Source of the DNA: Ophioderma brevispina
Taxonomy: Eukaryota > Echinodermata > Ophiuroidea > Amphilepidida > Ophiodermatidae
Assembly (NCBI GenBank): GCA_023653785.1
Contig: JAMKCH010011872.1
Span: 31,539-95,538 of the forward strand
Direction of reading: 5' to 3'
DNA: 64,000 bases
The translations under genes and the position numbers were made by a program. The notes beneath the pieces are model-generated. The model saw only the letters and a list, made by a program, of their open reading frames with translations. It had not been told where the DNA came from and did not search any database. This document shows positions 2,815 through 53,925 of the stretch, in pieces (position 1 is the first letter of the stretch; every line of letters starts with the position of its first letter).

Positions 2815-2947
2815 TTAATTTAGCCCTAGGATTTCATAGGGTAAATGAGAAAAATAGCTTTTTTCTGATACCAAATTTTAACCACTTCCGGTAAAATGTG
2901 GGGTTCCTGGGGACGAGGCTATTAGCAATCGGGCCATGGACCTTTAA
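2702..2947. mobile_element. Chimeric MITE zeta at the duplication junction
   Basis: The left half (to about 2790) matches the 5' half of the element at 3762-4100 (gggggcaggggtgacctgat and following). The right half from 2815 matches the 3' half of the element at 1455-1733 (ttaatttagccctaggattt and following). A run of 20 A separates the two halves. This is the configuration left by unequal recombination between the two MITEs. Confidence 0.75.
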
Positions 2948-4787: not shown

Positions 4788-5345
4788 TTAAAGGGATTAG
4801 CAGCCGATGAATGCGAGAGAATCGAAAAAAATGTGGAAATGCATGTTTTTAACTTATAAACCAGGGATAAGTGTGTACAATTCCATATAACTGCTTAATA
4901 TAGAAAAAACCACCAAATAGTGAGAAAATGAAGTATTTGAGGAAATTTGTCATACCGTCTCCCGCAAATTGACAAACAGCTACGGCATCTCAAAATCTGC
5001 ACTAAACAGCTTAAATTGTGGTTTACACCAGTACAGAATAAACAAAGATCAATAATGTTTGTGTTTCAGGTCAAACTGTAATGATCAAGGTGCACAATAT
5101 CACGCTGAAAATCTGTGATATTCACCGGGAAAGGCTTTTTTGATCTGAAGTCGGAATTTTGATACGCACGTATAGAAATTACAGAATCAGATAAAAAGTA
5201 CTACCTTGTCTTATATGCGGATATCAAGCCAACCACTTGCAAGTCATGTGCGCGTATCCATGCCAGTAACAAAAATATAAAAATATGAATTTTGATGACT
5301 TTTTCGATGTTTCGGCGGATTAGCAAATCGCTGCTAATCCCTTAA
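4788..5345. mobile_element. TTAA-flanked MITE, family delta
   Basis: Left end TTAAAGGGATTAGCAGCCGA. The right end, reverse-complemented, reads TTAAGGGATTAGCAGCGATT. Length is about 558 bp with TTAA at both edges and no coding interior. The TTAA target preference is that of piggyBac-type transposases, but no transposase is seen. Confidence 0.82.
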
Positions 5346-6741: not shown

Positions 6742-6868
6742 GAAGTATGAAGTGGCGAAACGTGCATACACCCTGTGCCGTCTTTCAGTTGCAGTGCGCT
6801 TGTGCTTCACCTACGCGCCCGCTGAAAGTCGGTTCAATGTATACGCCCGCGTTGCTACTTCATACTTC
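6742..6868. mobile_element. Short palindromic MITE (~127 bp)
   Basis: GAAGTATGAAGTGGCGAAACG at the left is matched by the reverse complement of CGTTGCTACTTCATACTTC at the right. The arms continue imperfectly towards the centre, with CTTTCAG and CTGAAAG inside. The block is C+G-rich compared with its surroundings. A small open frame runs through it but is a by-product. Confidence 0.7.
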
Positions 6869-9353
6869 GAGCTGGACAGAGTATACAGTAGTGCAGTAAT
6901 AGAACGAAATGTGTATCAGTAACTCGGTAAGCCTTTTATAAAGAGTCTCTGGTGCAACTGCTGAATCCCAAGAAAGACAACTTTGCATGTGTTTAATACA
7001 GAAATATTTACTATCAATGTAATCAAGAGAAAATTCCTTACAAACACTTCCTATGTTACAGTCAAAAGTGACAAGTCTTTATAAATAATACAACCTATTT
7101 GTGACTAGTAAGCCAAATTTGACACCTTACTGGCTTAAGGTAGGTTTATTGTGCAGTGCTGGGAGGTAAAGCCTAGTTGCGCAGAAGGTATATTGCACCA
7201 TGCTTGCAGATGGAAGCTTTCAATGCATAATGCCATATTGGATGGGACCTGCCTGTCTAATGACAACAACTCTTTTGTGTGGTAACAATTTTCTTCCCAA
7301 ATCTAGCTGTAGGCATATTACATGATGGCAGTACAATTGTAATATGTATACACAAGCAGATTTTAAGGACATTTTTATTTGGTTTTATGACTGAGGGAAA
7401 AAATATATGCAAAAAAGGATTTGAAAATAACAACTAAGGTATGATAGTACCTTCACCTAACATACTTTTGAGCATTACACACATAATATATGTAGAGGGT
7501 AGTTTCCGGGTGTCCAAAATACAGAATATACTCTCGATCAAAAATCGCACCTACTTCCTACTGGGAAGGACCTCTGAATTTCTTTCCTGTATTTATTTTT
7601 ACTGCTAATAATGTGAAACCAAAGTAAAAAATAAACTTGATGCTGCACTTCCCTATTCAAAATTGTTTCCCTTTCATATTCTATTTAAATATGACAATTA
7701 AAAGGTCCTTCCTGATAGGACTTAATCCCAGATTAACATTTAAACCAGGACTAAACTGTTTTGGGACTATTTGTACGGACCAATTACTCCTGCCTACCTA
7801 AATGTTATGAGATCATTTCAAAAGAAAGAAGCCCAACATTTAGGCAACTTCCAAGAGGCGACAATCATAAATGGAAGTAAACTCCAAATTGTATGCCTTT
7901 TGCATTGGTCAATCAGATAAGCAAGACTGACTTACACTTAAGTTTGACTTAATCCAATTATGATATGTGCTAGTCTGATTGAGAGATAACGCTGGACATA
8001 ATACATTTCGCCGGTATTCTCAAAGGTAGTTGTTAACTTCAGACCTGGATTTAAACCAGATCTACCTGAGTGGACAAGAAGAGTGCTATACTGCATGAAA
8101 ATCCCTCATGGACGGAATTTTCTCAACCATTACATTGAACTTTCACACAGTATCAGTTTCACTTCCACAGACTCTTTGAGAATACTAGCTCCAATTTCAG
8201 GTAGACATTTCATATAGAAATCCCAAGTATGCAAATGAAGTATTGCCATGTATTCACTCAAGTGCTACTGCACAACATATAGCGCATGACAGAATCAATT
8301 GTGGTACCGTACCTCATTTACGTACTTGGGACTTCGACAACCTAATTTTAAATGGGTCCTTCACTACACGTGGTTTTTCATCACTTCTTGTTGTCAATTT
8401 CTATCATGTTATTTATTTTCAAAGTGTAGCTATAAAAAATTAGATCCCTTATAGATCCCTAAACCAACATCAAGATTTTTTTACTACAGACAGTGCTAAA
8501 TTGCTGATGTAGTACACATTAGTATCCATTGGTTACTGGTTCAAGCCTTAGCTCATGCACCTGTTCCGAATTATGATACAATAGGATTTGTATTGTGATC
8601 AATGTGATCAGTGGCTCATACCAAAGTTAGTGTGAGCCAGTTGACCTGGCAACGGTCTTATTCTAACATGCTCTACATCAGTGAATTACTCCACTAATGA
8701 AGCCCATACTCTGTTAGAGAAAAAAATTAACTTGCTGTGAAGGTTTAATGTGGATTCCCATCAAAAAAGATGCTTGCTTTTTATTGAGCTCATTTTGGGA
8801 ATGAAAAGAGCTCAACGCGTTAGATATCACACATATTCACCACTTACAAGAAACCAAGCAACTTATAGTACTACAGCTGAATTTCAGATCCGGATTGAGT
8901 TGGAACACAACAAAAATACAAATTCAATAAGACTGAAATTTCTCCAGTAGTTCTCAGCTTCATTCCTGTGACAATCAATGCCTCTACTTTTTGTAATGTG
9001 TCACTTTCAATTTTTCAAGAAAGGGAATCGTATTATGAGAACCATGTCATGGAAAAACTTAAAAAAAAAAAAAAACAACACCAATTCAATTTAGAATTAC
9101 ATACAAACAATCAACTGATAGAATTTCTTACATATGTTACAATTATAATACAAATTTTAAATATTCTCATTCAACTTTTTGTGAAACTATTGCTGGGTAA
9201 TAATAAGAATCATCACATAACTATTAGTAATACATCAATATCTCTTCATGATAAAGTCACATTATTTTTAAAGTGCACCCATGTTTTCCAATTAGCAGCC
9301 ATGGGGGTGTTATACCTGGGTTGCTGTTCAGATGAAGTAATTAATATTGGAGG
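6869..9353. other. Intergenic stretch, no gene recognised
   Basis: A+T-rich DNA. The longest open frame here (from 8968, 157 codons) has lysine runs from an A tract and resembles no family. The sequence near 7715-8070 has two retaaaccagg-like phrases that may be a decayed element, without clear ends. Confidence 0.5.
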
Positions 9354-10433: not shown

Positions 10434-11280
10434 TTAAAGCGGCACTGGCACATTTTCACAAAATATGAAATTTCTTCAATTTGATCGCAAATGATAGTCT
10501 AGGCCATTGGCAGAATAGAGATATATTTACATATAAAAATAACATAGCCAAAAACCAGATAGGGACATTAAAGGTGCAACGAGAGATTTTGAGGCAGCCA
10601 AATATTGTGTCATAATAGTTATTTCATATAGATTAGATACTTAATAGATTTCTTACCTGATATTTGGCTACAGAAATGTCTTAAAAGAGAGAAAAGGCAA
10701 TTTTTATTTGCTTATATTTCAATATAAAACATAGGCTGAATTTCCTATTTGCTCCTATACGAAATTAGAAATGTCACAATTTTTGTACCAAGGAAACATT
10801 TCTCAGCTTAATCCTTTCAGATGGGCTTATTTTGATGGAAAACTTTACAATAGTGCAAAAATCAGAATTTTCACATTTTTTCACATTTATGTGAAATCTC
10901 TCGTTGCACCTTTAATAAGAGGCTCAAGACATTCAGGTAATTTGTAGGCCAACTTTAAGTTTGCCATTGCCATAACTTTAATCAACGAATGTCTATTACA
11001 TGAATATCATAGACTCGTACTCATTGATATAACCAAAGGGTCACAGACCGGACAAACGGGGTTCATGCCATGGGAATCAGGCTCCGGCATGTGTTTTCTT
11101 GTGTTAAACGCTATTTCCGTCATCTCGACATTAATTATGAAAATCGTTCTGCTTACCCATAAGGGTGTTGAAGGCTAAGGTGAGGGCTAATGTATAAAAG
11201 CTTAATGACCATGCAAAAAATATCAATTTTGAAAAATTGCGAGGGCACACTATTTTTCAAATGTGCCAGTGTCTCTTTAA
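10434..11280. mobile_element. TTAA-flanked MITE, family beta, copy 1 (interrupted)
   Basis: Left end TTAAAGCGGCACTGGCACAT and right end ATGTGCCAGTGTCTCTTTAA are inverted repeats. A second full copy is at 29941-30448 and a reversed partial copy at about 25600-25906. This copy is longer because another MITE has inserted at 10568-10915. The tail (from about 11205) is included in the duplication that also carries the zinc-finger 3' end. Confidence 0.85.
10568..10915. mobile_element. Nested TTAA MITE, family gamma
   Basis: Left TTAAAGGTGCAACGAGAGAT and right ATCTCTCGTTGCACCTTTAA. TTAA is present on both sides, while the uninterrupted family-beta copy at 29941-30448 has a single TTAA at the equivalent point (gggcattaataagaggct). 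About 340 bp, noncoding. Confidence 0.85.
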
Positions 11281-12061
11281 TATACATATTACAATTTTGC
11301 AATATTTAAAAGAGTTTGTAATTAAGTCATTGTTGCTAAAAAAATTTAACTCATCTAAATGTTTGTCCAATTTTGACCTTTTGACCCACACAGTGACACT
11401 GTTCTACATAGCATTGTCAAATCTCAATGCAGTTAGTGCATACAAGCTGTCACAACATGGTGTGACAAACAATTAAATAGTGCCAGATCTACTGCTGACT
11501 AGCTGTTGTACTATCTTTTGAAACTGCTATTTGTTGAAATGAAAATTGAGCATTTTTAAAAATGTACATTTACCACCGCAGCAAAATACAACAAAAAAGT
11601 CAATTTTCTTGCCTCTTTCCAACAATGGGCAACTTTACTTGAGAATTAACCAGTACATTCACAGATGTGGGTTTACTTTTATGATTATTGATACAAAATA
11701 GTATTGTTCTTGACATTTTGACTAAATTTTTTTCCTGGAATTGGGATTCATTAAATCACCTCACTATTACTGTGTTAGTAACACTGTTGAGATATTAAGT
11801 TATCTTCATCTGAGAAGTTGTGTTACACACACCACACATATACTGTTCTTTCCCGGTGTGGGTAATTTCATGACGGCGCAAGTCGTGAATTGTAATGAAC
11901 GACTTGGTACAGAACCGACACTGCTTGCCTTCAATGTCCATCTCCTCGCCTCTTCTTCAAATGATTCAACAGTTCAAGATAGTGAGGGAGGACAGTGGTC
12001 CTCTCATTTTCCTTCTGTCCCTTTGATTCCTCATGCTCCTTTGCATAACTAGATTCTTCAT
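11205..12061. repeat. Duplicated block carrying the zinc-finger 3' end, copy A
   Basis: Matches 12236-13080 through MITE-beta tail, about 500 bp of 3' flank and about 270 bp of zinc-finger coding sequence. Divergence is visibly higher than in the 1.6-3.85-kb duplication, with scattered substitutions and indels. It ends abruptly at an A run of about 20, followed by a fragment of MITE alpha. Confidence 0.88.
11786..12061 (-). pseudogene. Truncated duplicate of the zinc-finger gene's C-terminus
   Basis: On the minus strand this stretch corresponds to the last two fingers of the gene at 12790-13554 (CRFCTKSF...[10 protein letters not shown] and CGVCNTTF). It is truncated at the A run at 12062, and relative to the parent it has several indels in the acidic linker. 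The final finger is broken: the parent reads [11 protein letters not shown] then stop, whereas here the zinc-binding histidines are lost (NLISQQCY then stop). It cannot encode a product on its own. Confidence 0.8.
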
Positions 12062-12080
12062 AAAAAAAAAAAAAAAAAAA

Positions 12081-12235
12081 ATGGGATCCCAATTCTAATT
12101 ACAAAATCGCTTATTTTGTGAAAAATACGCATTTTTTAGCATTCTCGTTCGCAGACCTTTCCAAGACAATTACCAACGTAACTGTGCAAAAATATTAAAT
12201 TTTGAAAATTGGGGCGCTCTTCAAAAAATGTGCCA
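12081..12235. mobile_element. One-ended fragment of MITE family alpha
   Basis: Contains the reverse complement of the left arm of the element at 841-1373: gggatcccaattctaattac, then ttggggcgctcttcaaaaaa, ending ccaatattgctttaa. Only one terminus is present; the other side is an A run of about 20. It lies exactly between the two copies of the zinc-finger 3' duplication. Confidence 0.75.
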
Positions 12236-12789
12236 ATATTGCTTTAATGACCATACAAAAATATCAATTCTGAAAAATTGTGAGGGTGCCCTATTTTTCA
12301 AATGTGCCGGTGTCTCTTTAATATACATATTACAATTTTGCAAATATAAGTCATCGGTGCTAAAAAAATTTAACTCGTCTAAATGTTTGTCCAATTTTGA
12401 CCTTTTGACCAACACAGTGACACTGTTCTACATAGCATTGTCAAATCTCAATACAGTAGTGCATACAAGCTGTCACAACATGGTGTGACAAACAATTAAA
12501 CAGTGCCAGATCTACTGCTGACTAGCTGTTATGCCATCTTTTGAAACTGCTATTTGTTGACATGAAATTGAGCATTTTTAAAAATGTACATATACCACCG
12601 CAGCAAAATACAACGAAAAAGTAAATTTTCTTGCCTCTTTCCAATAATGGGCAACTTTACTTGAGAATTAACCAGTATATTCACAGATGTGGGTTTACTT
12701 TTATGATTATTGATACAAAATAGTATTGTTCTTGACATTTTATTTTGACTAATTTTTTTCTGGAATTGGAATTCATTAAATCACCTCCA
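12236..12789. other. 3' flank of the zinc-finger gene (duplication copy B)
   Basis: Noncoding DNA downstream of the minus-strand gene, homologous to 11205-11785. It begins with a MITE-beta tail (aaatgtgccggtgtctcttt). No polyadenylation signal could be singled out with confidence among the A+T-rich candidates. Confidence 0.6.
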
Positions 12790-13554
12790 CTATTTACTGT
12801 GTATTAAACTGTGAGATATTAAGTTATCTTCATTTGAGAAGGTTGTGTTACACACACCACACATATACTGTTCTTTCCCGGTGTGGGTAATTTCATGACG
12901 GCGCAAGTCGTGAATTGTAATGAACGACTTGGTACAGAACCGACACTGCTTGCCTTCAATGTCCATTTCCTCTTCTTCAAATGATTCAGCAGTTTCAAGA
13001 TAGTGAGGGAGGACAGGTGGTCCTTCATTTTCTTCTTCCATTGACTCCTCATGCTCCTTTGCATAACTAGATTCTTCATTGAATGTCAAACCATCTTCAT
13101 GATTATCCTCAAAATTACTGTTTGCTTGGTGATTTGAGCCTTCCTCTGCAGCAGGGTCGGGATACGAGTCCAGTGATGGATATTCCATTGACGCATTCTC
13201 TTCCTCATCTGATATCGGCTCAGCTTTGATGTGAATCGGTAGCTCGGGGTACATCTCATCTGACATCTCTTCCTCTGGTTCTGTAGGAGTCACAAATGCC
13301 TCAGCAGCATGAACCGATTCCTGGTGTAATTTCAGGTGATGGTTACGTGAGAATTGTTTCAAGCAAATTGGACATTCATAGGGCTTTTCTCCTGTGTGTG
13401 TCCGTATGTGTCGGACAAGGTCCCCAGATGAGCCAAAAGATTTGGGACACATGTCACATTGGTGACGTTTCCCATGCCCATTAGAGTCCCTCATTCCACT
13501 AGTACTCTGCCGTGTGCCATTGTCCTCAAAACCTTGATCACGGTCTTTTGACAC
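12790..13554 (-). CDS. Zinc-finger gene, C-terminal piece (4 C2H2 fingers)
   Basis: The 254-codon open piece carries the last four fingers: CDMCPKSF...HIRTH (residues about 33-53), CPICLKQF...HQESVH (61-82), then a long acidic Ser/Glu/Pro linker of about 120 residues, then CRFCTKSF...HEITH and CGVCNTTF...HSLIH, ending HSK and stop. The first pair is joined by a canonical TGEKPYE linker. The acidic linker could be a disordered regulatory region, but this is inference. The first Met is not a real start: the frame extends upstream ([11 protein letters not shown]) until the frameshift near 13584. Its last third is duplicated at 11786-12061. Confidence 0.85.
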
Positions 13555-13567
13555 CTTAAATTCATCT

Positions 13568-14131
13568 TCACCGGTAGGTTCTTTTTAACTTTACTAGATT
13601 GAGGTGCTCCACCCATGTGCACTTTTCATGCTGCGCAAGATATCGTAGTGCACTACAGACCTTACTACAGAACCTGCACTTGTATCCTTGTTGCCCAACC
13701 TTCTCGGGAATATCGTTCTCTGGCGTAAGTACTGGCATCGAGTTAACTGATTGGATTTGGGTATCGCTTAGATTCCATGAAGCAAGTGGCATGCCTTGTT
13801 TGTGGATGACAAACATATGCTTTTTCAAGTTCTGACTTTGTGAGAACTTTTTTGGGCATAGTGGGCAGGGGTAGGGTTGTTCACCTGTGTGCGTCCTGAT
13901 GTGTCGCTTCAAATCGGTAGTCGTCAGGAAGCGTTTGTCACACCAATCACATCCATGGGGTCTTGTTTGATCAAGTGTGGACTCATGTGTTTTTACCAAG
14001 CTTGTTGCAATGTTTGGCACTTCCTGATTACTGCTACTGCTATCACTGCTGCTGCTACTGCTATGCCGTTGAGGGGACTCTTCCTCGTTACCGTGGCTGT
14101 TTTCTCCAGTATGACATCTTTCATGCGACAT
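13568..14131 (-). CDS. Zinc-finger gene, piece with 3 fingers and Ser-rich linker
   Basis: The 187-codon piece begins with the tail of a finger ([13 protein letters not shown]), followed by a serine-rich tract ([12 protein letters not shown]). Then come CDWCDKRF...HIRTH, the linker [15 protein letters not shown]...HMFVIH, a spacer, and [20 protein letters not shown]. In the last finger one base is missing after the cysteine codon at about 13616. Restoring the frame there would place the expected final histidine, so the break hits a zinc ligand. A second single-base loss lies in an A run at about 13584. The start shown is a frame artefact: the upstream piece overlaps it by 11 bases. Confidence 0.85.
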
Positions 14132-15881
14132 TTAGCCCTGCTTTGTTAAAGAATGTTTTAAAACAGTGACGGCATTGATAGCGTTTTTCTCCTTTGTGTG
14201 ATCTCTCATGCATAGTCAGCCCTCCACGGTTGGTGAAAGTCTGCCCACAGAATCGGCACTCCATGCTTCTATCAGCTTCCATGTGATCTTTCTCATGGGC
14301 GATGAGACTACTGCTTTCGGAGAATGTCATGTCACAATGCTGACACATAAACAACGACTTAGTGGTGTGAGTTGCTTGATGCTCAATCAAAGCTGACTTC
14401 AAGGAAAACATCTCATGACAGTAAAGACATCCAAATTTTACACCACCAGTATCTGCCTCCTTTTTCTTTTTGGGAACTGCCGGTTTTTCTAGTGGGAAGG
14501 GCACCTTGGGCTTCACTCCGTGAAAATTACGTTTGTGCCTTGATAAATTTGTACTCTGCGTGAAAGTCCTATCACACATGTTGCAAGCAAATTTCCCTCC
14601 TTTGGACCTTGAGGACACCGCAGTTTTAAGAGATAGCCCAAGATGCTGTGGTAATGTAGACGACTTCTGCGCATGCACTGTTAATTTTGGTTGATGTGAC
14701 GTTGCTGAAGATTTCTTGGCATCGTTTGCACGCCCTGAAGCCTGCTTACCATGCAGTAAATTTCCCAAAATATTACCCATGGTTGGTTTCTTGTTATGAA
14801 ACAATCGCTTGTGTCTGGACAAATTTCCACTGTTGCTAAAGGATTTGCTACACCAAAGACAGAAATATTTCTTGATGCCATCTATCACTTGCACAACAGA
14901 TTTTGAATTCTGTGTTTGACTTGCATTTTGGACTGAGTTTTTGGAGCTTTGTGTCTGAACATTTACTTTTGGTTTCTGAAATGGACTTGCGGGAATTCGA
15001 ACCTTTGGTTTCTGCCCATGGTGAATGCGCCTGTGTTTTGAAAGGTTACCACTGCTACTATAACTCCTGTTACATGGTTGACAAAAATATCTCTTGGTTG
15101 AACTTGGAGGTGTAGGCGTAACAGCTACTGGAGGCGGTGTCGGTTTCAAAGCTGGTAGCGACTTTTTCCCCTTGTGAAATATCCGAAAATGTCGTGAACG
15201 ATTGGAGCTGCTTGAAAAGTTCTTCCTACACAAGACACAGGGGTAAACTTTCCCTGCTTCTCCCGAACCTGCAGGTTTGCGCTCTTCTTTTACAGTTACC
15301 GCAATTTCTTTATTTTCTGCATTAGAATTTACGTTATGTACGAGGAAGATGTGCTGTCTCAGCTCATTTGAATTTGCGAAAGGTTTTGAGCAGTATCCAC
15401 AAATTTGGGGTTTCCTGTCTACTTCTTCACTAACTTGTCTACTTAAACCAGTGGCCATCTTTTGTGGTTCTCTTTGAGAGGTAGCTTCTTTATCAGCTTT
15501 TACCTTACCAGACACTGCTGTATTGTGCTCCTTCTCATGCTTTTCCAGGATGGCATTTGTTTCAAAAAGCTTGAAACAAATCTGGCATCTGAATGGTAGT
15601 TCTAGTAAATGAGCCCTTTCGTGGAGTCTGAGTTGTGCTTGATCAATGAAAGTAGCTTCACAATATGAGCATTTATATCCTTTAATACTTGTTAAGGGAG
15701 TTGCACCTGTCTCTTTCTTTAAAGTCATAGTACTTCCTGAATCTCCTTGAGTTGCCAAGCGATCATTAGCCAAAAGACTGCTTCTGACACTTTTCTCCAA
15801 TTTACTACCTTTACCATGTGCTGTATGACTCAATTGTTGATTTGATCTAACAATGCTTGCGAGCTGAAATTGCTTTTGCAA
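14121..15881 (-). CDS. Zinc-finger gene, central piece (~10-11 fingers)
   Basis: The 586-codon piece contains, in order, CSYCEATF...HERAH, CQICFKLF...HEKEH, CGYCSKPF...HIFLVH, CVLCRKNF...HFRIFH, CQPCNRSY...HRRIHH, CLWCSKSF...HKRLFH, CNMCDRTF...HKRNFH, CLYCHEMF...HQATH, CQHCDMTF...HEKDH, CRFCGQTF...HERSH and the start of CRHCFKTFFNKAGL. The run of fingers with SxSGNLSRH-type helices (four in a row, about residues 215-460) looks internally duplicated, separated by basic Ser/Pro/Gln spacers of 40-60 residues rather than TGEKP linkers. The last finger is interrupted by one extra A at about 14130. The apparent Met start lies in another finger and is not a true start. Confidence 0.85.
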   Translation of the reverse strand: MQKQFQLASIVRSNQQLSHTAHGKGSKLEKSVRSSLLANDRLATQGDSGSTMTLKKETGATPLTSIKGYKCSYCEATFIDQAQLRLHERAHLLELPFRCQICFKLFETNAILEKHEKEHNTAVSGKVKADKEATSQREPQKMATGLSRQVSEEVDRKPQICGYCSKPFANSNELRQHIFLVHNVNSNAENKEIAVTVKEERKPAGSGEAGKVYPCVLCRKNFSSSSNRSRHFRIFHKGKKSLPALKPTPPPVAVTPTPPSSTKRYFCQPCNRSYSSSGNLSKHRRIHHGQKPKVRIPASPFQKPKVNVQTQSSKNSVQNASQTQNSKSVVQVIDGIKKYFCLWCSKSFSNSGNLSRHKRLFHNKKPTMGNILGNLLHGKQASGRANDAKKSSATSHQPKLTVHAQKSSTLPQHLGLSLKTAVSSRSKGGKFACNMCDRTFTQSTNLSRHKRNFHGVKPKVPFPLEKPAVPKKKKEADTGGVKFGCLYCHEMFSLKSALIEHQATHTTKSLFMCQHCDMTFSESSSLIAHEKDHMEADRSMECRFCGQTFTNRGGLTMHERSHKGEKRYQCRHCFKTFFNKAGLNVA

Positions 15882-16489
15882 AGATTACATGCAAAAGGTC
15901 TCTTTCCGGAGTGTAGAGACATGTGTCTTGTGAGGTGTGTGGACTGGAAGAAACCACGCTGACAAATGTCACACTTAAAGGGTTTTTGTCCTGTATGAGA
16001 AATTATGTGACGGTTTAGATTGGACGAGTTGGAGAAGGCTTGTTTGCAGATGTGGCACTGACGACGCCCGCCTCCACAAATGGTCATCTTATGCTTTCGC
16101 AATCCAAATGTATCTCTGAATCGTTTACCACATTTGTCACACTTAAGACTATACAAATTCTGTGTCTTGATGAGTCCAACAGGAGGAGGAGGGGGTGGTG
16201 GGTTAGCATCATCTTTGGCATCAGGGAGGTCAGTTGGTAAAGAGTACTTTGATACAAATGGATTCTTGATCATATGCACCTGTTTTAAATGCTTTCTAAG
16301 ATTAGACGGGTTGGCAAATTCCTTCTGACAGAGGTTACATGTCTTAGCATCTATTCTCCCTTTGTGTACAGTCTGCAGATGTTTGTTCAGATTCCCAGTA
16401 CGATTGAAGGCCATGCCACAGACTCGACAATGAAGCAAGTCTTCCTGCGTGTGAGTTCTCTCATGAACTTTTAAGCTCCACTCAGACAT
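15830..16489 (-). CDS. Zinc-finger gene, piece with ~6 fingers
   Basis: The 219-codon piece begins inside a finger (MSEWSLKVHERTH), whose cysteines CKFC lie just upstream in another frame. It continues CRVCGMAF...HLQTVH, CNLCQKEF...HLKQVH, a proline run (PPPPPPP), CDKCGKRFRDTFGLRKHKMTIC (a Cys replaces the last His, giving C2HC), CHICKQAF...HIISH, CDICQRGF...HMSLH, and CNLCKSNFSSQALLDQ, where the frame is lost near 15845. Linkers TGQKPFK and SGKRPFA are near-canonical, pointing to a contiguous DNA-binding array in the second half. Confidence 0.85.
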   Translation of the reverse strand: MSEWSLKVHERTHTQEDLLHCRVCGMAFNRTGNLNKHLQTVHKGRIDAKTCNLCQKEFANPSNLRKHLKQVHMIKNPFVSKYSLPTDLPDAKDDANPPPPPPPVGLIKTQNLYSLKCDKCGKRFRDTFGLRKHKMTICGGGRRQCHICKQAFSNSSNLNRHIISHTGQKPFKCDICQRGFFQSTHLTRHMSLHSGKRPFACNLCKSNFSSQALLDQINN

Positions 16490-16881
16490 CAGGTGTTTAC
16501 CACAAAATTTGCATTCAGTCTATCCTGGTAGGGTCCTTCTGATTTTGCTTGCATAGTATTCTGTTCTATCTGTGGTGGCGGTGGTGGTTTCACATCACTG
16601 TTTTCTTCTTTGTCGATACGGAACCTTGAAGACTTAACTCCGTGTACATTAATCCGGTGTATTTTCAAGTTCCATGTTCGATTGAAAGCCTTGTTGCAAA
16701 TATTACACACATAGGGCTTCTCCCCAGTATGTGTTCTCTCATGTCGTTCATATTCAGTCCTTCGGAAGAATATCATTGGACAAAACTTACATGTGTATGT
16801 CAATTCACCCTCAGAACCATGTGATTTCTCATGACTCAGCAAATTTTCTCTTGTGTCACACACTGCTTGCAAAAATGACAC
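16489..16881 (-). CDS. Zinc-finger gene, short piece (2 full fingers)
   Basis: The 130-codon piece starts with the tail of a finger (TRENLLSHEKSH), continues with CKFCPMIFFRRTEYERHERTH, linker TGEKPYV, CNICNKAFNRTWNLKIHRINVH, then a spacer with a five-proline run. It loses frame near 16520, where the other frame reads TECKFCGKHL into the next piece. The split of one finger between this piece and its neighbour at about 16860 (CHFCKQC in one frame, TRENLLSHEKSH in the other) shows the two belong to one gene. There is no splice-site arrangement that would explain the shift. Confidence 0.8.
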   Translation of the reverse strand: MSFLQAVCDTRENLLSHEKSHGSEGELTYTCKFCPMIFFRRTEYERHERTHTGEKPYVCNICNKAFNRTWNLKIHRINVHGVKSSRFRIDKEENSDVKPPPPPQIEQNTMQAKSEGPYQDRLNANFVVNT

Positions 16882-18569
16882 ACATGGTTTCTGTCACCGT
16901 CTTGACTCAAATCCATCATGTCTTCAGTATAGTTATCTTCAAAGGCTTGGTAATCTTCCTCTTCATCAATACTCTCATCTTTGTGGAAAATTCTGGGCAC
17001 TGTTTTGGTTCCTTTGTGAGCTTTCTTCTTGTGTCTTGTCAACTGATAAAGCTTGCAGAATTTAAGCCCACAGGTGTTACACTGAAATCTTCTGTTAGCT
17101 GTGTGGATGACCTCGTGTTGTTCAAGGTACATCTTTCTGGAACACACTTTATCACAAAATCGGCACTTGAAGGGACCAGAGCTACCATGAGGAATGACTG
17201 GCAGTGGTTTGTCAACCTGACTTTGATCCGTCGTTTGAATTTCTGGGTTGGTGTAACTAATGACAGGCAAAACGTTAGCAGCCTTAATATACCAGTACTT
17301 CCCATAGCGTTTGCGATGACTTCGCATATGACTGAGCAGGCGTTTATTTTTTCTACAGAAACGGTGGCCACAATACATGCACAACAACCCCCTTTTGCCT
17401 GGCTTGTACTTTTCAGAATGACTGCTTTCAATGGAAACTGGGCTCAGCAACGAAGCATTCTTGTGTGCAGATTTGACATGCCTTATGAGTTGCAGATGGC
17501 GTAAGAAACTTTTGGTACAGATTTGACAAATATACTCTTTATGCGTGTTTTCATGCTGTCTAAGTCGACGTCTAACATCAAAACCTTTCCCACACTTCTT
17601 GCATTTGTAGCGATTTCCATGTGTATGCAGTTTCTCATGAACCAAAAGGTTGGCATATTTACCACAAACTTTACTGCAATATCTGCATTTGTATGCTTGA
17701 ACTTTCTCGTTCACTTTAACATCACAAGATGGTAAAAGGTAAGCCTGTGGAGAGGAGAAATCTTCAAATGCCTGCCCAGCGTTGTCTACTGTTGATGATA
17801 CATCTTTCTCCACCTGTTTGCTCATCTCCATACTTGATTTAACGTCTGCGTTATCTGTTGCCATTGAAGTTTGGTTAATTTCTGCTTTGACAATCCTAGA
17901 CTTGTTTTTCAAATGCATATTCTCATGTGTCACTAAACCAGACTTTGTAAGAAAGCGTCTCCCACAATGCCTACACTTAAAAGAGTAAGTTCCTTTGTGG
18001 CTCTTCTCATGGACAACAAGGCCAGCACGATTCAGGAAACGTTTGTTACAGAATTTGCAAGGAAATAATCTATCTAATCCTTTCTTCAATTCTCTCTTTA
18101 ACTCTGTCTCTTCTGTATCCTGAGGAATTGCTGTAAATCCCGTCTTGGCTGGAGTGTGTGCTCGCTGGTGCTTCATAAGACTTTGCTGATTAGGAAACAT
18201 CTCCTCACAGTAAAAACAACCAAAAAGCTGGGTTGCCATCCTGTTTGGTGGTGGTATACCTTTACAGATTTGCCTGTGTCTAAAGTAGTTACTTTTACGG
18301 TGGAATCTCTGTGGGCATTTTGTACACGCGTAAGGCTTTTCCCCTGTGTGGGTCCTTTCGTGCTCAATAAGATCTCTTCTGATGGTGTAAACTCGTGGGC
18401 AATACTGGCAAGCAAGCGGTGCTTTGGATTGAGATGTACTGGCAGATCTGACAGGAGTCCTTGGTTTCTCTTCAAGTTCTGTTACCTGCACTGGTGGCTT
18501 CTGCATATGTGATATGGAGGAATCCTTTGTCAGTTCCAATGGGTAAACCTGCAACTCACTTTCATCCAT
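16836..18569 (-). CDS. Zinc-finger gene, N-terminal intact piece (~11 fingers)
   Basis: The 577-codon piece has fingers CQYCPRVY...HERTH (residues about 54-74), TGEKPYA, CTKCPQRF...HRQIC (C2HC), CFYCEEMF...HQRAH, CKFCNKRF...HEKSH, CRHCGRRF...HENMH, CRYCSKVC...HEKLH, CKKCGKGF...HENTH, CQICTKSF...HVKSAH, CMYCGHRF...HMRSH, CRFCDKVC...HEVIH, CNTCGLKF...HKKKAH, then an acidic segment and a split finger. Two fingers of the form CRxCxKVC lack the usual phenylalanine. The Met at the start is plausible, but the frame remains open upstream (IHIETEPPPPSTFTDDFTSFNN) and continues into decayed finger sequence, so the true start is probably beyond 18.6 kb. Confidence 0.88.
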   Translation of the reverse strand: MDESELQVYPLELTKDSSISHMQKPPVQVTELEEKPRTPVRSASTSQSKAPLACQYCPRVYTIRRDLIEHERTHTGEKPYACTKCPQRFHRKSNYFRHRQICKGIPPPNRMATQLFGCFYCEEMFPNQQSLMKHQRAHTPAKTGFTAIPQDTEETELKRELKKGLDRLFPCKFCNKRFLNRAGLVVHEKSHKGTYSFKCRHCGRRFLTKSGLVTHENMHLKNKSRIVKAEINQTSMATDNADVKSSMEMSKQVEKDVSSTVDNAGQAFEDFSSPQAYLLPSCDVKVNEKVQAYKCRYCSKVCGKYANLLVHEKLHTHGNRYKCKKCGKGFDVRRRLRQHENTHKEYICQICTKSFLRHLQLIRHVKSAHKNASLLSPVSIESSHSEKYKPGKRGLLCMYCGHRFCRKNKRLLSHMRSHRKRYGKYWYIKAANVLPVISYTNPEIQTTDQSQVDKPLPVIPHGSSGPFKCRFCDKVCSRKMYLEQHEVIHTANRRFQCNTCGLKFCKLYQLTRHKKKAHKGTKTVPRIFHKDESIDEEEDYQAFEDNYTEDMMDLSQDGDRNHVCHFCKQCVTQEKIC

Positions 18570-19450
18570 ATTGTTGAAGCTAGTAAAATCGTCAGTAAAG
18601 GTCGATGGTGGTGGCGGCTCAGTCTCTATGTGAATTTTCGAATGAATCTCCAGCTATCCTGTGATGTAAATAAGCGTCCCTACAGAACATCTTAAAACAA
18701 TGCACAGTAGGATTCATCGTTCGCATGTGTTTGGTGAGGTCACTCTTTGCGGGCTGTTTTCATGGAGCATATCGGACATCTGTGTGGTTTTTCACCGGTG
18801 TCTTCCTCTCGTGTTCCATCAAGTCTCTTGCGCTTGCACTCTCTTGCTGTCAATACTGACAAACCTTTCCTGCACCTGCTGCACTTCTCATTTCAATTGC
18901 GTTTTTCTGGATATAGTCTATATCAACACTCTGCACACTTCGGTGTCATATCTCTCTTCTTTCTAATCATTTTATTTGCGGGTTCTTCTTCTTCTTCTTC
19001 TTCTTCTACTTTGGCTTCTTTTTGATTTGTGTGCGCGTACTATCTTTAGAGGGCGAACTTTCTTGTGCTTTTGATGAGTAACTTTTGAAATGTTCTTCGT
19101 CTCTTTCCATTGCTTCAACTTGAGTTGGCAGTGGTTCTTCTTGATTGTCCCCTGCGAGATGAATAACCCTGTGCACCTTGAGCTGTGAAGTTTTGGGCAA
19201 ATGTGGCATTACCAAAAGGAAATGTCGCAGTGCTTCTCATATCCTCTGATGAATTATCAGTCGTGTCTGGCGAGATGGCCTCTTATCTAAAACTTGCCCC
19301 GCATATACTACAAGCGTATGGTCGCTGTGTTGAATGAATTTCCATCATGTTGGAAACAGCTGATTTTCATTGTGAAAGGCATCACCAATCGGCATTTTAG
19401 GTTTTCCCTCCGTCATCAAAGCTATCTTCAGATTCATTGGTATCCCATGA
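18570..19450 (-). pseudogene. Decayed 5' part of the zinc-finger gene
   Basis: Minus-strand translation in changing frames shows finger remnants: LEIHSKIH before 18569, RCPICSMKT with DLTKHMRT and MEHER near 18720-18830, a Glu run from (TCT)n at about 18978-19005, SQLKVHRVIH near 19150-19200, and IHSTQRPYACSICGASF near 19275-19345, which is followed by a stop. At least five frame changes are needed in about 850 bp, against about six in the 5.8 kb of the body, so this part is clearly more degraded. Confidence 0.65.
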
Positions 19451-20400: not shown

Positions 20401-20794
20401 CCACATAATTATGATATTATTAGTAGTATTAGTAGTATCATTACTCTTTTTAATATTATTTTTTTAACTCTTTTAATATCCAAGTGTCACAATGACATGT
20501 AGCATAAAATCAGTATGATTTAACACCCAACTTTTATTGGTCCCACTATGAGTTTTAAAGTATTGGGCTTGACTACGCCTCGCCCAATATTTGTGCACTC
20601 TAGCTCGCCCAATAAATTTGGGCTCATCGATCCAATTTTATATGAAACATCGATGAAAAATGGATACACCAAGCACCTTGAATCTTTTGACCCTTTTTGG
20701 AGTATGACCTCAATGGCACAAGTGTAGTTTAGGACCCTACATTGTTTACTGTTAAATACTACGTAAATTGCCACCAAAATCGATCCTATCTATC
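20401..20794. other. Intergenic stretch with short palindromes
   Basis: A (tta/gta)n-rich patch at about 20417-20462 is followed by repeated attgggc / gcccaat phrases between 20565 and 20635 that can pair. No gene. Confidence 0.5.
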
Positions 20795-22330
20795 TTCTAA
20801 CGGCCGCAGCCGAGAATGCTGTTCACCATTTTGCGCCAAATGTCCCTGTTGTCATTAGGTGGGATATCAATGGATCTCCCCTGCTGGATAAGTCTCGAGC
20901 AAGCCATCAATGTAGTTCAAGGGGCTGACGACCCCTGTTTTGGCATTGTAACTTCGCACTGTGACGTCTGAGACACTTGGTCAATCTCACGATGACAGTG
21001 ACTCGCAAATCGTGCCTGCGTTGGCAAACAAATATGAACTTGGAGGGATATCTCCATATTGCCTATCTGTGCTTTGGTCTTGTGCTCGCGCCAGGATATG
21101 TTTTGTCCTCGCATAAGAAGCTTGGTGTAGTGCCATCCAGTCTATCTGTAGCTCTTTCTTCATGGTCCAGTCTCAGATCCAATAACAGGATACTCTCTAC
21201 ACCGGCTCTAAAGAATTTCACCTTGGTTTAATTGGAGATACCAGATGGCATAAGTGGTGTAGTTTATTGCGCAGGCATTCCAAGCTTGTCCTTTCGTGAC
21301 AGGAAGTCTTTCTTGCTGTCGGCAACATAGGACCCTAGGTACTTGAAGTCCTTGACCTCTTTGAGTTGGCTACCCATCTGCTGTGAAGATAGGTTGATGA
21401 TCGTCTTCCTCATTGACAGTCATATATTCAGTCTTATTGGCATTTAGATGTAGGGCGGACTTTTTCTGCAGCATTCTCAAGTGATGTTAGTAGATTTGTG
21501 CAACCAAATATCAGATCCAGCTGTTAGAGCTAGGTCATCTGCGTAGTCAAGGTCTGTGGACTGCTGAACCCATGTGACGTCTGAAACGCTTGGGTTTGAT
21601 GGCGAGTCCTTTTGTCGTTCATGATGTCAAGGTTCTGTCTGAGGATGTAATCAACCACGACTACAAAGAGACAGGGAGCAAGCGTATCTCCTTGGAGGAT
21701 CCGTAGTTGTTAGGAACTCCTTTGTGGGCCCATCCCTGGTCTGCAAAAAGCTAGTTGGGTTATCATAACATGACTGGCAATTGCCTTTGACAGTCTCATC
21801 TGGACACCTTAGTTGGCGAGAATATGCAGCATTACATCCCTGTTAACACGTCAAAAGCCTTGGAAAAAACTACGGAACACAATTGAGCTTTTCTCTTGGA
21901 AATTCTCCAACTCTTCTATGATCCTGAAGGCAAGTATCTGAGGTAGTGTTGATCTGCTTTGCGAAAAAACCGTTCTGGTTCCGTCTGAGAATGAGGGATC
22001 TATGTGAGGAGTGATTATGTTTGAGCAGAATGGAAGTTGTAGAATCTTAGAGGGCCATTGGCTGACAGTGTAAGTCCTCTGTAGTTTTGGGGTTGTGAGG
22101 TCGCCTTTCTTGGTAGAGGAATGATGAATGAGTTGAAAAGGCAGCTGGTTTGTTTCCCATGTAGGTTGTGTTACAAATTCTTAACAGTGATCATGGAATA
22201 GGGAGTTCTTCCAGCCCACCCTACTGCAGGAATGTTGCGGGACCAGGTGTCTTGGTGTTCTTCAGTTTATTCAGGCAGATCTGAAGCTCCTCCATAGGAA
22301 AGAATCAACTCACTTTCAGAACCCTCTTCT
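20795..22330 (-). mobile_element. LINE copy 1, 5'-truncated non-LTR retrotransposon (unedited reference copy)
   Basis: The minus strand encodes the RT and C-terminal part of a non-LTR retrotransposon. Recognisable pieces are RRNQNGF near 21975-22000 (the NQxGFR motif), LQGDTLAP near 21680-21705, DLDYADDLAL at about 21527-21556 with catalytic YADD at 21534-21545, and the tail RFASHCHR...VTMPKQG and DNRDIWRKM-like residues at 20830-20980. Several frameshifts make it non-functional. It lacks the endonuclease half. It is collinear with the LINE at 49975-53010 and is the natural comparison for the A-to-G changes there. Clade assignment (CR1/L2-like) is tentative. Confidence 0.85.
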
Positions 22331-39344: not shown

Positions 39345-40060
39345 GGGTTGAAACTTAGCGCCTGTCGTCTTTGCTCCTTTACCCACAATACGGCTATGGC
39401 AAAATGCGAAAGTTCGCTCATACCAACGAAAATTCACGGTCCCTCCTGTATAAATAACTTGTGGTATAATAGAGTTACGTGTACGCCATTTGTAACATGA
39501 CAATACAAACTCACCATTGCAAGACTCGGCATATATAGCTAGCACCCACAGATGAACATAGGCCCAACCCAGTTTAAGAGGGTTGGTACATGAATAGTTT
39601 ATAATATAATTATTTGTTTTTCAAATGCGGCCTGATCAGTTATTTCAAGGTCACATTTGGGAGTTTAGTATTCAAAAATTTAGCTCCTTTAATGCTCTAG
39701 ATTTATTAATCTATTTTATGAATCAATGTTATATATTTTACTACAGCACTTTGCAGTCTAACAAGTCGGGTCTCTTCAATTGAAAATCTCTGGAAATTGT
39801 AGTTCTCTACTATTTGCTTTTTGTAATAATAACTAATTCACCGTATATCTATATTTATAGCAATTCCAGAATTCACAGTTTCATTATAACACCCAATTTC
39901 ACGGTTTAAGTCTAAATAGTCTACAAGATTATTATGTATGTTATCCCCGAGTTTTACCTTGACTTTTAGTGCTGTGTCCCACCCCCTTAAATCTAACCCG
40001 AGACGTTAGAGCGCCCCCTGTAAAGCAAGGCCCAGGGACCACCGTTCGTCCCCAAGTGTC
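39345..40060. repeat. 0.7-kb interspersed repeat, copy 1
   Basis: Collinear with 49215-49880. Shared phrases run in order: gcctgtcgt.ctttgctcct, atggcaaaat.cgaaagttcg, ggtccctcctgtataaat, caccgtata, ttatccccgagttttacctt, agtgctgtgtcccacccc, agcgccccctgtaaa, and ggaccaccgttcgtcc. Divergence is considerable. No coding frame is conserved between the two copies. Confidence 0.85.
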
Positions 40061-40304
40061 ATATCCTTATTTTAATCCCCTTGGTCTAATGAAGTTCACC
40101 AACCCATTGTTAGTTAGTGAGTTATCATCACTGGAACACTGGAATCTATCTCACATACAGCAAGCATAGATCAACAGTTACATGTCTTTAAATGGTACAA
40201 AAACCTCATGTTCTAGTGCATTGACTATATGGCAATCTCTTGGTTGATATTTGTCAATTTTTCAATTGGAAAAAAATACATACGAGAATCCACAGCCTTA
40301 TCCT

Positions 40305-49214: not shown

Positions 49215-49880
49215 CAGGGGCCTGACACGCCTGTCGTCCCTTTGCTCCTTTACCCTACAATATGGCTATGGCAAAATACGAAAGTTCGTGCATACCACGA
49301 ATTTATGGTCCCTCCTGTATAAATTAACCTCATGGTATAGAGTTACTTGTTCGCGGTTTGTACCATGGCAGTAACGAACTTCGCATTTCAAAACTTGGCT
49401 ATCCGATTAAGGGTTTGTACACTGAAATGTTTCTAATGTTAAGTAGTTGGTTTCAAAGGTCTTTTCAGTTTTTCAAGGTAAAAATTTTGTATGTTTAGGA
49501 TCAAATTGAGCTCCTTAATGTCTTTATATTTATTTAATCTGTTTTATTAATCGATTATTTTTGCGCTACAGCCCTTGTATCTACACAGTCGGGTCCCTTC
49601 AATGAAATCTCCGGAAATAGTGTACTTCCATCTATTTGTTTTTGTTTTACTTCACCGTATACTATAGAAATTCAGAAATTACACTTTCATAACAAACACC
49701 ATTTCGTTTTTAGTCCAATATCTACAAATTAACCGCCTATGTATTGTTATCCCCGAGTTTTACCTGGAGTTTTTTTAGTGCTGTGTCCCACCCCCCTTAA
49801 AATCTAACCGAAGTCGTTATAGCGCCCCCTGTAAACCAGGTCCAGGACCACCGTTCGTCCAAGTGTCATCTCCTAGTGAT
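49215..49880. repeat. 0.7-kb interspersed repeat, copy 2
   Basis: Collinear with 39345-40060 (see that entry for shared phrases). It ends about 100 bp before the LINE remnant that begins near 49975. Confidence 0.85.
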
Positions 49881-50099
49881 CAACTGCTCACCTCAGAAAA
49901 CTTCGCCAACGATGCGAAAGCCAGGGTTACTTGATCTAATTAGGAAATGTTTAGTTTAATTTACTCACTATTTGGTATCCCTACAGCTGCACTTAACTCG
50001 TACTGAATTAGTCCACAGCTCTCTATCTAAACGGCCCAAGAGCATCCGATATGCTTTTCCCAGTAGCGCCAATGCCCCGCCCGTCATCAGGTCGGGGAC

Positions 50100-51390
50100 G
50101 TCAGACGGATCCCGCTGGATGTCTCGAGCAATCACATCATGTTTCCAAAGGGCTAACGACCCCCGTCCCGTCATGGCACTTCCAACACGCGACGTCCGAG
50201 ACACCCGGTCAACCGCACGACGACAGCGAACCTGTCAAATCGCTCAAATCTGCTTTTGCCAACAAAGACGAAACCTGAGGGACATCTCCACACATCCGTG
50301 CCCCGGCCCCGCCCCACGCTAGGACATGCCCTGCCCTCGCACAAGAAGCCCTGGCGCAGGTGGGCCCATCCAGCCATCCCGCGCTCCCCCCCCACGGCCC
50401 CAGTCCCAGACCCGACACAACATGATACTCCCTACACATGCTCCCAAAGATTCCATCCTGGCCAACGAGACACCAGACTGCCACAAGTGGCTCAGCCGCA
50501 TTGCAGGCATTCCAAGCCCGTCCCCTGCGTGACAGGAAGTCCCCCCCGCCGTCGGCCCATGGGACCACAAACCGAAGGCCCGCACTCCCCGATCCGGCAC
50601 CATCTCCCGCCGCGCAGACAGGCCGACGACCGTCTTCCTCACCGAATTCCACCATTCATCCTCCTTGGCATCCAGATGTAGGCCAACCTCGTCCCGCAAG
50701 ACCTCCCAAGCGATGTTAGTAGATCCCTGTGCACCACACATCAGACCAGCCGCCAGAGCCAGACAACCCGCGCAGCCAAGGCCCGCGATACCTGACCCAG
50801 TGACGCCCGGCCACTCCCGGGCCCTACGGGAGTCCCCCCGGCGTCCACGACGTCAAGACGCTGTCTGAGTACTGTAACCACCACTACCACAAGAGATAGG
50901 GAGCAAGAGTATCTCCCTGGAGGACCCCCAGCAGTTGTCAGGACTCCCTTGTTGGGCCCATCCACGGCCTGCACAAAGCCACATGGGTTATCACACATGA
51001 CGGCAATCGCCCCGACAGCCCCACCCGGGACACCGTAGCCGGCGAGAACATGTCCAGGATTACATCCCTGTTAACACTGTAAAGCCTTGGAAAAATCTAC
51101 GAACACAATTTGAAGCTTTTCGCTTGGAACTTCTCAACTGTTCTATGATCCTTCTGAGGGCAAGCATCGGAGGTAGTGTTGATCTGCCTTTGCGAAAACC
51201 GCTCCGGTTCCGTCTGAGAATGGGATCCATGCGAGGAGTCGATTCCCGTCGAGCAGCATGGAGCTGTAGATCCCAGAGGCCAGTGGCGACATGTAATTTC
51301 CTCTGCAGCCCTGGGGCCGCGGATGCCTCCCCTCCCCGCAGAGGAACTCCGAATGACTTCGAAAAGGCAGCTGGCCTGTCTCCCACGTAG
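50100..51390 (-). pseudogene. LINE reverse transcriptase region, inactivated
   Basis: Motifs in order along the minus strand: RRNRSGFRKGRST with LALRRIIEQLRS (51165-51235), GVLQGDTLAPYL (50895-50935), the position of the catalytic YADD (50764-50775), and a C-terminal region where copy 1 reads DNRDIWR. At the YADD position the copy 1 codons TAC GCA GAT GAC are changed so that the tyrosine and catalytic aspartates are lost; most of the changes are A-to-G on this strand. Frameshifts also occur. It cannot encode active reverse transcriptase. Confidence 0.8.
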
Positions 51391-52429
51391 GTGCTATTAC
51401 AAAACTCTAACAGCTGATCATGAATAGGGGACCCCCCCAGACCACTGCAGTGGGGGGGGGGGACGCCGTCGGAACCAGGCGTCTTGCGTTCCCCAGTCTC
51501 CCCAGGCCGATCCTAACCCCTCCACAGCGAAAGTCCGCCTGGATGGGAAGGGTGTCTGCCATCTTGTGATTGAGGAAAGTTTCATTAAGGTTAGTGTTAT
51601 TCTGACCTGGGTTTGCCAAGTAGAACGAAATTCTGGAAACCATGTGTCAGTCTCTCTTCAGTTGTTTCACCTTTGATTCTTATAGGTGGGGTCGCCTTCT
51701 TATCGGTCAGCCTCCCCCTCAGGCCTCCCAGGAAGCACATGCTTGTTTTAATATGTAGGGCTCAAGTGCTTCAGCCTTGGACTTACATGCTCCTCAAGCA
51801 CCACCTTGTAAGCATCATCATGCGCCTTAGCAGCATCAAGGTCTGCTGGAGCTTCTGGTGGATTTAGTACGGTGCTTCTTGGCTGCAGACTTCATTTTTC
51901 TCTGGCTTTGCTGACTTTGTTATTTGAGGCAAAGGCAGTAGTCTTCTCCTTTCTTCTAGGTAGCATCTCAATGCAATTCTTTGTTGGTGAAGTGAGGACA
52001 TTATTACTGCGCTGGAGTCTTGTCTTCAAGCTCATAAACAAGAGTGTTGAACCTGTTATGTCCCGCTACAGTATACTGCTCCCAAAGCTTTGTATCCCCC
52101 ACAACCTTCCTCCAGTCTATTGTTTTCCTGGGATCTCTGGGAGGTGGTTACTCTGACGATAACTTATCGGGGCTCCGAAGAGACAATTCTGTGATCAGAC
52201 TTAACAGCTTCAAAAGTGTTGTAGGCTCTTGAGTTCTATAATGCTGTTAATCCACTTCTTTCTGAACAGAATATAGTCCAGTTGAACAAGTTCTCCATTT
52301 GGGCGCGTGTGTCCACAGTCTACCTGAATGATTTTGGAATTTGGTATTAGTGGGAACAAGGTTAAATTGTTCCATGAAGTCGTTCATGTACATTCCCATT
52401 TCTGTTAGACTCGTTGTTGCAAGTGATAC

Positions 52430-52990
52430 AGCGCGGCGTCAGGCCCAAGCTAGCGTTGTATCTCCCGGGATGTACAGAAGATTATGGGGCTGGAACTGTA
52501 CTGGTGGCATTGGAAAGTTCATGGTAAAGTGGAGAGACAGTTTCTTCTGGATACTCGTTGTGGGGGCTGTAACAGCAAATGACTGGTTGTTTCAGGATTG
52601 CCGTCAGTGTAAGCTTCAAGATGCGGCTCATTAAAGTTGACAAGGCTGGCACATGACCTGAGGACATTGGTGATAAGAAACCCCACAACCTCCTGTAGCT
52701 GCATTCTCTTGTTCTTCCATGCAGAGACTGTAATAAGTGCATAGTCATGGATATTCTCCTGCAGTAGAGGTTCACTGTGCACCAATGCGGTGTTCTTGTA
52801 TGCAGATGAAATCGATATCATACAGTTGTGCTTAATGTATGAGTTCTTTCTTTCCTTCTTGGCTGTTGTTACAAAGAAAGTGATCTGGACATTAATGTGC
52901 TTAATGATGAAAGCATTTTTTTGCGTCTAACAAAGTTGGGGTTCCCTGCATCTTTTGTCAATATCAGGGTTGGGGGGGGCCGTCCAGTAG
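52430..52990 (-). pseudogene. LINE AP-like endonuclease region
   Basis: In two overlapping frames the minus strand reads YDIDFICIQEHRI (the catalytic-Glu motif QEHR), then VHSEPLLQENIHDY, LITVSAWKN, GVGFLITN, LRSCASLVNFNE, ILKLTLT, VICCYSPHNEYPEETVSP and PGDT. These correspond to the strands and loops of the exonuclease-endonuclease-phosphatase fold carried by CR1/L2/Jockey-type LINEs. Frameshifts near 52640 and elsewhere break it. It does not show the T-poor composition of the RT half. Confidence 0.8.
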
Positions 52991-53010
52991 GCTTTAGGAC
53001 CAACCCCGCA

Positions 53011-53925
53011 TGATGCAATTGGTATAGACCAATGTTGCCTCAGAAGGCACAGACTTTAAATCAGGGCTTTAACCCTGGGTGCTAGTTTTTGGAACTATTC
53101 ATCTTGTCAATTAGCTAACTATTGTCTCTATCTGCTTTTCTGGTTAAAGAAAGTCTCCCATGTACAACCGAAAGGCACTAGAAATTTTCGTCGACTGACC
53201 TGCTGGAGTGTCAGAAAAGGTTTAGCAAAGGTCCTAGGTTAGACGTTGGCATGAACGATTCAGCGTAGAATGCATGTACTCTTGTACGTGCGTAGTAGCA
53301 TCTTTGTAAGAGTGATTAATATTCCGTTCGCACAGCAAGACCATATTTAGGAGCTTTTAGTGTCACCGGAGCGATTTTTATATTCGTTTGGATTTTGACC
53401 CGACAGAGTAAAAAATCTGTGATTAGGGTGAGTATTCGGACTCATATATTCTCATAGGTATTTATAATTCGTTTCGAGGGCCAAATACTTACTCAATATA
53501 GGGTAATGGCTGCAGAAAAAAATTCCTGCAGCCTATTTCTTTGTACGGTAATGAAATTAAGAAAGCATGTGAATACCTTTTTCCCCAGACCGTCGCGCTG
53601 CGCGCTCGAGGGCTGGTTCTGAACGGACTATGTCTCTCCTATTTTTATCCTCCTTGTGTGTCCCAATGTACAAGGAGAACGCAAAATATGATTGCCACCT
53701 CAAGTCCCATGTTCCATTTTCTTTCCTATCTAAAAAAATGCTAATTTTTTTAATTTTTAATAAAATTTTACTTTTTTTATTTTTAGTATTTTTTGTGAAG
53801 CCTTTTTTTAATTTAGGCCTACATATTTAAAATGTACAGCTTACCCCATTCCACCTTAGGCTCAGAACTTTAATTGCACACCCCTCGTATTATAAGCAGC
53901 CAAACTAGAGTCAAAACCAGTGAAA
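53011..53925. other. Intergenic stretch, nothing recognised
   Basis: A+T-rich at its right end (ttttaatttttaataaaat near 53745). No gene. Confidence 0.5.

Follow-up and report, generated by a model that had tools for sequence, protein, structure and literature searches.

Strand-specific A-to-G changes in LINE insertions of the brittle star Ophioderma brevispina are consistent with ADAR editing before insertion

What process changed one of two related LINE copies almost entirely in one direction and on one strand? Both copies lie in the window, by which we mean the whole stretch of 64,000 nucleotides analysed here (Ophioderma brevispina, contig JAMKCH010011872.1, positions 31,539 to 95,538). 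The initial annotation had placed copy 2 at 50,050-51,540, had noted dense plus-strand T-to-C differences from copy 1, and had proposed that the LINE RNA was edited by ADAR before insertion. The LINE pieces of the window and an adjoining repeat are listed below, all counts referring to the plus strand; labels beginning with L denote places sampled in the genome.

20,786-22,302, minus strand: LINE copy 1, 5'-truncated and unedited (T>C 15/466)
49,228-49,874, plus strand: dispersed repeat adjoining copy 2, control (against 39,359-40,067: T>C 20, C>T 15, A>G 18, G>A 11)
50,019-53,121, minus strand: LINE copy 2, near full length, 3' end at 50,019 (blastn against L005, L018, L020 and L021)
50,019-50,077, minus strand: LINE 3' end of copy 2 in the unedited state (two-state segmentation)
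50,078-51,050 (about), minus strand: hyperedited tract 1 of copy 2, sense A-to-G (segmentation; T>C at 181/285 T sites)
51,051-51,201, minus strand: unedited gap within the edited part of copy 2 (segmentation and site list)
51,202-51,538 (about), minus strand: hyperedited tract 2 of copy 2, with a sharp end (T>C at 56/106 T sites; the last edited site of the run is 51,538)
51,540-53,121, minus strand: unedited 5' half of the same insertion (T>C at 16/445 T sites)

The T-to-C-dense copy exists as described, but the element reaches about 53,121 and not 51,540; the end point claimed lies near the true tract edge and also near the 5' truncation point of copy 1. By blastn, the 5' end of copy 2 falls about 24-29 bases short of the 5' end common to L005, L018 and L020. 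The 5' truncations of copy 1 (window 22,302), L022 and L009 lie at 1,510-1,521 bases, close to the end of the copy 2 tract (window 51,538; reference column 1,512). The reverse transcriptase (RT) frame runs on the minus strand in both window copies, with YADDLAL and RRNQNGF in copy 1, and plus-strand T>C is therefore A>G in the sense strand. At the YADD site copy 1 reads GTCATCTGCGTA and copy 2 reads CAACCCGCGCAG; the annotated change of NQNGF to NRSGF was also recovered, as RRNQNGF in copy 1 and RRNRSGF in copy 2. The edited part of copy 2 further contains a run of eight C at 50,386-50,393 and a run of 11 G at 51,452-51,462, the latter not accounted for by T-to-C change.

The element is like non-LTR retrotransposons in joining an endonuclease to an RT, in its common 3' end and variable 5' truncation, and in the target duplications of some copies. 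L049 carries an Exo_endo_phos match (PF03372, E 5e-9) followed by RVT_1 (PF00078, E 1e-32), copies across the family share the 3' end and differ in the extent of 5' truncation, and a GATA-type tail stands at the 3' end of most. A named relative in Mnemiopsis shows 49% identity in the RT part. The family is presumably RTE-like.

Comparison of copy 2 with copy 1 on the plus strand, with generous ends, gave 231 T>C against 36 C>T, 40 A>G and 38 G>A; with tighter ends the counts were 202, 22, 20 and 28, respectively. The one-directional excess noted initially is thus reproduced. A comparable skew was absent from 12 other repeat pairs of the window, one of them self-aligned and uninformative, which rules out a general bias of window repeats.

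Elsewhere in the window, a direct duplication spans 1,601-3,852 (1,601-2,134 against 2,815-3,348 at 100% identity; 2,283-2,794 against 3,344-3,852 at 99%), and a direct repeat of ~0.85 kb with 91% identity spans 11,202-13,079. Several long C2H2 zinc-finger frames follow one another on the minus strand at 12,793-18,653. The best named match of the frame at 16,839-18,653 is from the brittle star Amphiura filiformis (56% identity over 25% of the query), and its other matches come from many animal groups.

To place the direction of change, the genome (2.51 Gb in 65,844 contigs) was searched with the edited copy 2, which returned 43 matches, 40 of 3492 first-look candidates being scored. The aligned set comprised 31 copies (copy 1, copy 2 and L002-L030), and the family reference was the majority of the 11 low-edit copies, each copy being left out of its own reference. 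Relative to this reference, T>C was found at 15/466 T sites of copy 1 and 238/458 of copy 2, and the family consensus agrees with copy 1, not copy 2. Single unedited copies used as the reference led to the same outcome: against L021, L028, L026 and L023, copy 2 showed 261, 256, 248 and 193 T>C and 25, 25, 15 and 8 C>T, respectively. Only the direction of one pairwise comparison need be wrong for the polarity to be reversed, with C-rich copies ancestral and T-rich copies made by APOBEC-like or RIP-like C-to-T change. That reading we consider hardly credible: the 11 T-rich copies agree with one another (T>C 0.2-3.2%), the reference built from them retains a long RT frame, and the C states of the edited copies are independent, a pattern given below that refutes it.

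Copy 2 is not alone in its family. Among the 31 aligned copies, 20 had T>C at 21-52% of T sites and 11 at 0.2-3.2%, and over the longer element the same copies gave 19-51% and 0.2-3.6%. For ten further matches L028 served as the reference, and only the matched piece was scored; nine showed 0-2%, and L058 showed 47/201. Altogether 21/41 copies were hyperedited and 20/41 unedited (the 40 scored places and copy 1), in a sample skewed by an edited query and by the choice of the best matches. We therefore also drew a sample that was not ranked by similarity, using a 30-base stretch with nine variable sites in which T was relaxed to Y and taking matches in contig order. The pattern matched 288 times in the genome, its reversed control 0 times. 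The first 100 matches by contig order comprised 72 unchanged, nine with 1-2 changes and 19 with 3-9, so where this stretch is preserved, about one fifth of copies carry edits in it; the pattern overlooks copies with a further mismatch, copy 2 among them. The corresponding A-to-R pattern, for plus-strand A-to-G, matched 258 times, and its first 100, counted by eye, comprised 85 unchanged, 14 with one change and one with two. At least three changes were thus found in 0/100 for plus-strand A-to-G, against 19/100 for sense A-to-G. Edited relatives of copy 2, which the initial annotation had suggested looking for, are therefore present in both samples. With copy 1 as query, the best 40 of 6191 candidates had 84-100% identity. 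The editing comparison covers one LINE family; a look for other LINEs within the sampled loci found this family and one weak 132-base match in L033.

The substitution table of the 20 edited copies, pooled on the plus strand, was as one-directional as that of copy 2. T>C was seen at 4643/14,024 T, G>A came next with 247, C>T numbered 166, and the eight transversion classes numbered 48-147 each (T>G 140, T>A 147). The 11 unedited copies together had T>C at 74/7229. An equal excess of plus-strand A-to-G, named at the outset as evidence against editing, was not seen (A>G 218/10,471 A). APOBEC DNA editing and RIP are rejected as going in the wrong direction (C>T 166 and G>A 247 vs T>C 4643). Diversity-generating retroelement mutagenesis, which changes A to any base, is rejected on the sense-strand counts of A-to-C and A-to-T (140 and 147 vs 4643 for A-to-G), and the context and tracts described below also speak against it. 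Editing offers no account of G>T in copy 2, seen 30 times in the edited part (50,019-51,538) and 10 times in the rest. With T>C set aside, edited copies diverged by 1.1-7.2% and unedited copies by 1.1-7.0%, and editing is therefore not restricted to one age class of the sample.

The changes are confined to tracts. In copy 2, sense A-to-G affected 238/445 A sites of the edited part and 16/445 of the rest (p 5e-69). The two-state segmentation model called 98 tracts in the 20 edited copies, with 4514/9135 sites edited (~49% of A); the tracts span a median of 205 columns. The model's sole call among the 11 unedited copies covered three sites, in copy 1. L020, L010 and L012 also switch editing off within one insertion. 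Tracts of this kind would fit partial duplexes. The LINE 3' end was largely spared: over the 20 edited copies, 25/278 sites were edited in the first 60 reference columns and 554/1259 in the next 240, as raw counts with all neighbour contexts together. This terminal stretch may be unpaired or bound, or perhaps only RNAs with an intact end get inserted. An unedited gap near reference columns ~1,030-1,120 is common to copy 2, L005, L007, L011 and L015, and might reflect local structure or an interruption of the partner RNA.

We then considered the bases next to the edited sites (sense strand, within tracts). By 5' neighbour, the edited fraction was.665 for T (920/1384),.586 for A (1514/2582),.401 for C (1166/2911) and.271 for G (631/2327); by 3' neighbour it was.519 for G (1173/2259),.491 for A (1268/2580),.437 for C (1019/2332) and.379 for T (771/2033), with chi-square p 1e-167 and 1e-21, respectively. 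Copy 2 alone gave T.643, A.597, C.550 and G.378 on the 5' side, and A.579, G.571, C.527 and T.459 on the 3' side, A and G being level. The ADAR preference proposed for checking is therefore borne out, with 5' U/A over C over G, 3' U disfavoured and 3' G favoured, although its pooled advantage over A is small (.519 vs.491). In metazoan editing, 5' U and A are favoured and G disfavoured, and 3' G is favoured and U disfavoured, in most species, according to the available text of PMC9989829. PMC5625713, in the portion accessible to us, gives a downstream A preference in amphibians and invertebrates, so the 3' side here fits the former account better.

These observations bear on a further reading, in which the reverse transcriptase misreads A, or the nucleotide supply is skewed, so that C is placed in the cDNA. 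RT error of this kind would likewise yield A-to-G on one strand. We regard it as very unlikely, since copies are either strongly edited or hardly at all, the rate drops from about half to near zero within one insertion, the neighbours follow ADAR, and sense A-to-C and A-to-T are low (plus-strand T>G 140, T>A 147).

If editing preceded insertion, the change should end where the insertion ends. In the testable flanks of edited loci, that is, stretches matching another sampled flank or the window, we counted 123 T>C, 101 C>T, 110 A>G and 111 G>A in 6943 aligned bases, with no skew; the 5' flanks of L015 and L003 were omitted because further LINE pieces lie there. The even counts rule out that flanking repeats are biased in general. 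At L015, an antisense copy of this LINE, itself unedited, is split by an edited insertion and resumes after it with an 11-base overlap, the target duplication. Inside the insertion T>C was 329/719, and in the interrupted copy beside it 0/15 and 5/116. In L043 (1,432-7,120), too, an edited LINE sits within an older copy of its own family in antisense orientation, and a second instance of this arrangement, at 5,248-7,120, looks like a duplication that followed insertion. Of 19 edited copies with a readable 5' end, eight carry direct repeats of 10-13 bases close to both ends, shuffles reaching 7-8 bases at the 95% level; seven of the eight repeats lie within 14 bases of the 5' similarity end and that of L005 at 22, while a 10-base match 60 bases away at L010 was left uncounted. 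No clear target duplication was found at the ends of copy 2.

The flanks and L015 also weigh on a DNA-acting deaminase, which would change sense adenines of LINE DNA hybridised to antisense RNA, either at insertion or later. Such DNA-RNA hybrids can be substrates for ADAR domains in vitro, and the same strand and possibly the same neighbours would be expected. The testable flanks nevertheless carry no bias, and at L015 the bias stops at both edges despite the adjoining antisense LINE. Editing of the first cDNA strand, moreover, would give sense T-to-C, which is rare (plus-strand A>G 218/10,471), and we judge this route improbable. An assembly or base-calling artefact might be suspected from the use of one assembly and from the long C and G runs in copy 2. 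It is scarcely conceivable given the same signature in 21/41 copies at separate places, the ADAR context, the clean tested flanks and the sharp edges within single contigs.

Edited copies might descend from one edited master that spread. With copy, local density and trinucleotide accounted for, the residual correlation between copies had a mean of 0.085 and a maximum of 0.22. These low values indicate that the edited copies are separate events and rule out a single master.

A profile search for PF02137 gave 11 matches in the genome. The frame in L060 contains two dsrm stretches and profile positions 1-152 of 329 of A_deamin, with HAE and PCG motifs, and its best solved relative is Double-stranded RNA-specific editase 1 (E 3e-130), which we take to be ADAR2. 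A match to A_deamin positions 152-321 lies on the same contig, 31 kb downstream of this frame. The genome thus encodes a predicted ADAR2-like protein. A second adenosine-deaminase-domain frame, at 78-980 of L062, had no dsrm match within the stretch read; perhaps it is a tRNA-type deaminase.

Taken on its sequence, copy 2 is very probably a LINE insertion whose RNA, in a duplex with antisense RNA, was hyperedited by ADAR before its reverse transcription and insertion. ADAR editing before insertion, as first proposed, is supported by the spectrum, the strand, the context, the clean tested flanks and the nesting at L015, and the signature together with the ADAR2-like gene points to the enzyme. 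The LINE RNA would pair with antisense RNA, ADAR would convert about half of the adenosines within the paired tracts, and reverse transcription would read inosine as G. Antisense RNA is the presumed partner because the LINE lacks a long inverted repeat: none was found in L049, where the longest inverted arms are 16 and 19 bases. An edited RNA could scarcely code for a functional RT, so insertion would depend on enzyme translated from unedited transcripts or already bound when editing began; the timing and the mobilisation in trans are conjectural.

More broadly, though with less assurance, we favour the view that ADAR acts as a germline mutagen of this LINE. A large share of the insertions would be dead on arrival, the unedited 3'-terminal recognition stretch would let the RT of intact copies insert them, and the genome would record, base by base, past dsRNA and ADAR activity over the life of the family. 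If the RNA was edited before copying, the genome would be an archive of the RNA editing of a retroelement. The family makes the relation of ADAR to retrotransposition testable, since each insertion appears to record which RNA parts were paired and which neighbours were preferred. The data also say that hyperedited RNA would remain a substrate for reverse transcription and insertion. As far as their accessible parts go, a 2016 review (PMC4982230) treats a role of ADAR in suppressing Alu retrotransposition by mutation as not determined, and a 2019 review (PMC6757416) describes LINE-1 inhibition by ADARs as independent of editing. Among the open-licence papers listed, judged by titles and the beginnings of abstracts, we found no report of ADAR-edited germline LINE insertions.

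That cytosine deaminases leave genomic scars on retroelements is well established. In mouse, APOBEC3 has left G-to-A clusters in genomic copies of IAP, and the signature described here is likewise a one-strand deaminase scar on reverse-transcribed copies (PMC2873906, available part). It is unlike APOBEC3 editing in that the base change is the opposite one and the target would be RNA, not cDNA. High-quality DNA traces of human and Xenopus showed no excess of A-to-G or T-to-C in the same part of that study. ADAR-linked A-to-G hyperediting, in clusters within a reverse-transcribed element as here, appears in RAV-1, an avian leukosis virus, and in HTLV-2 and STLV-3 in culture (PMC8586724, accessible text). 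Those retroviruses are infectious, the T-cell viruses having been followed in cell culture only, whereas here a germline LINE family carries the clusters in many independent insertions. As for metazoan RNA, the portions of the two surveys available to us describe repeats as the main hyperediting target, with sense-antisense pairing as the duplex source in some lineages (PMC9989829), and list sea urchin among the hyperedited animals (PMC5625713). The brittle star LINE resembles the ADAR hyperediting of repeat RNA, as far as the former describes it, in its dense sense A-to-G clusters with 5' U/A favoured and G disfavoured (PMC9989829). It is unlike metazoan RNA hyperediting, in which the edits lie in RNA and the genome is unedited, in that the changes are fixed in the genomic DNA of new insertions.
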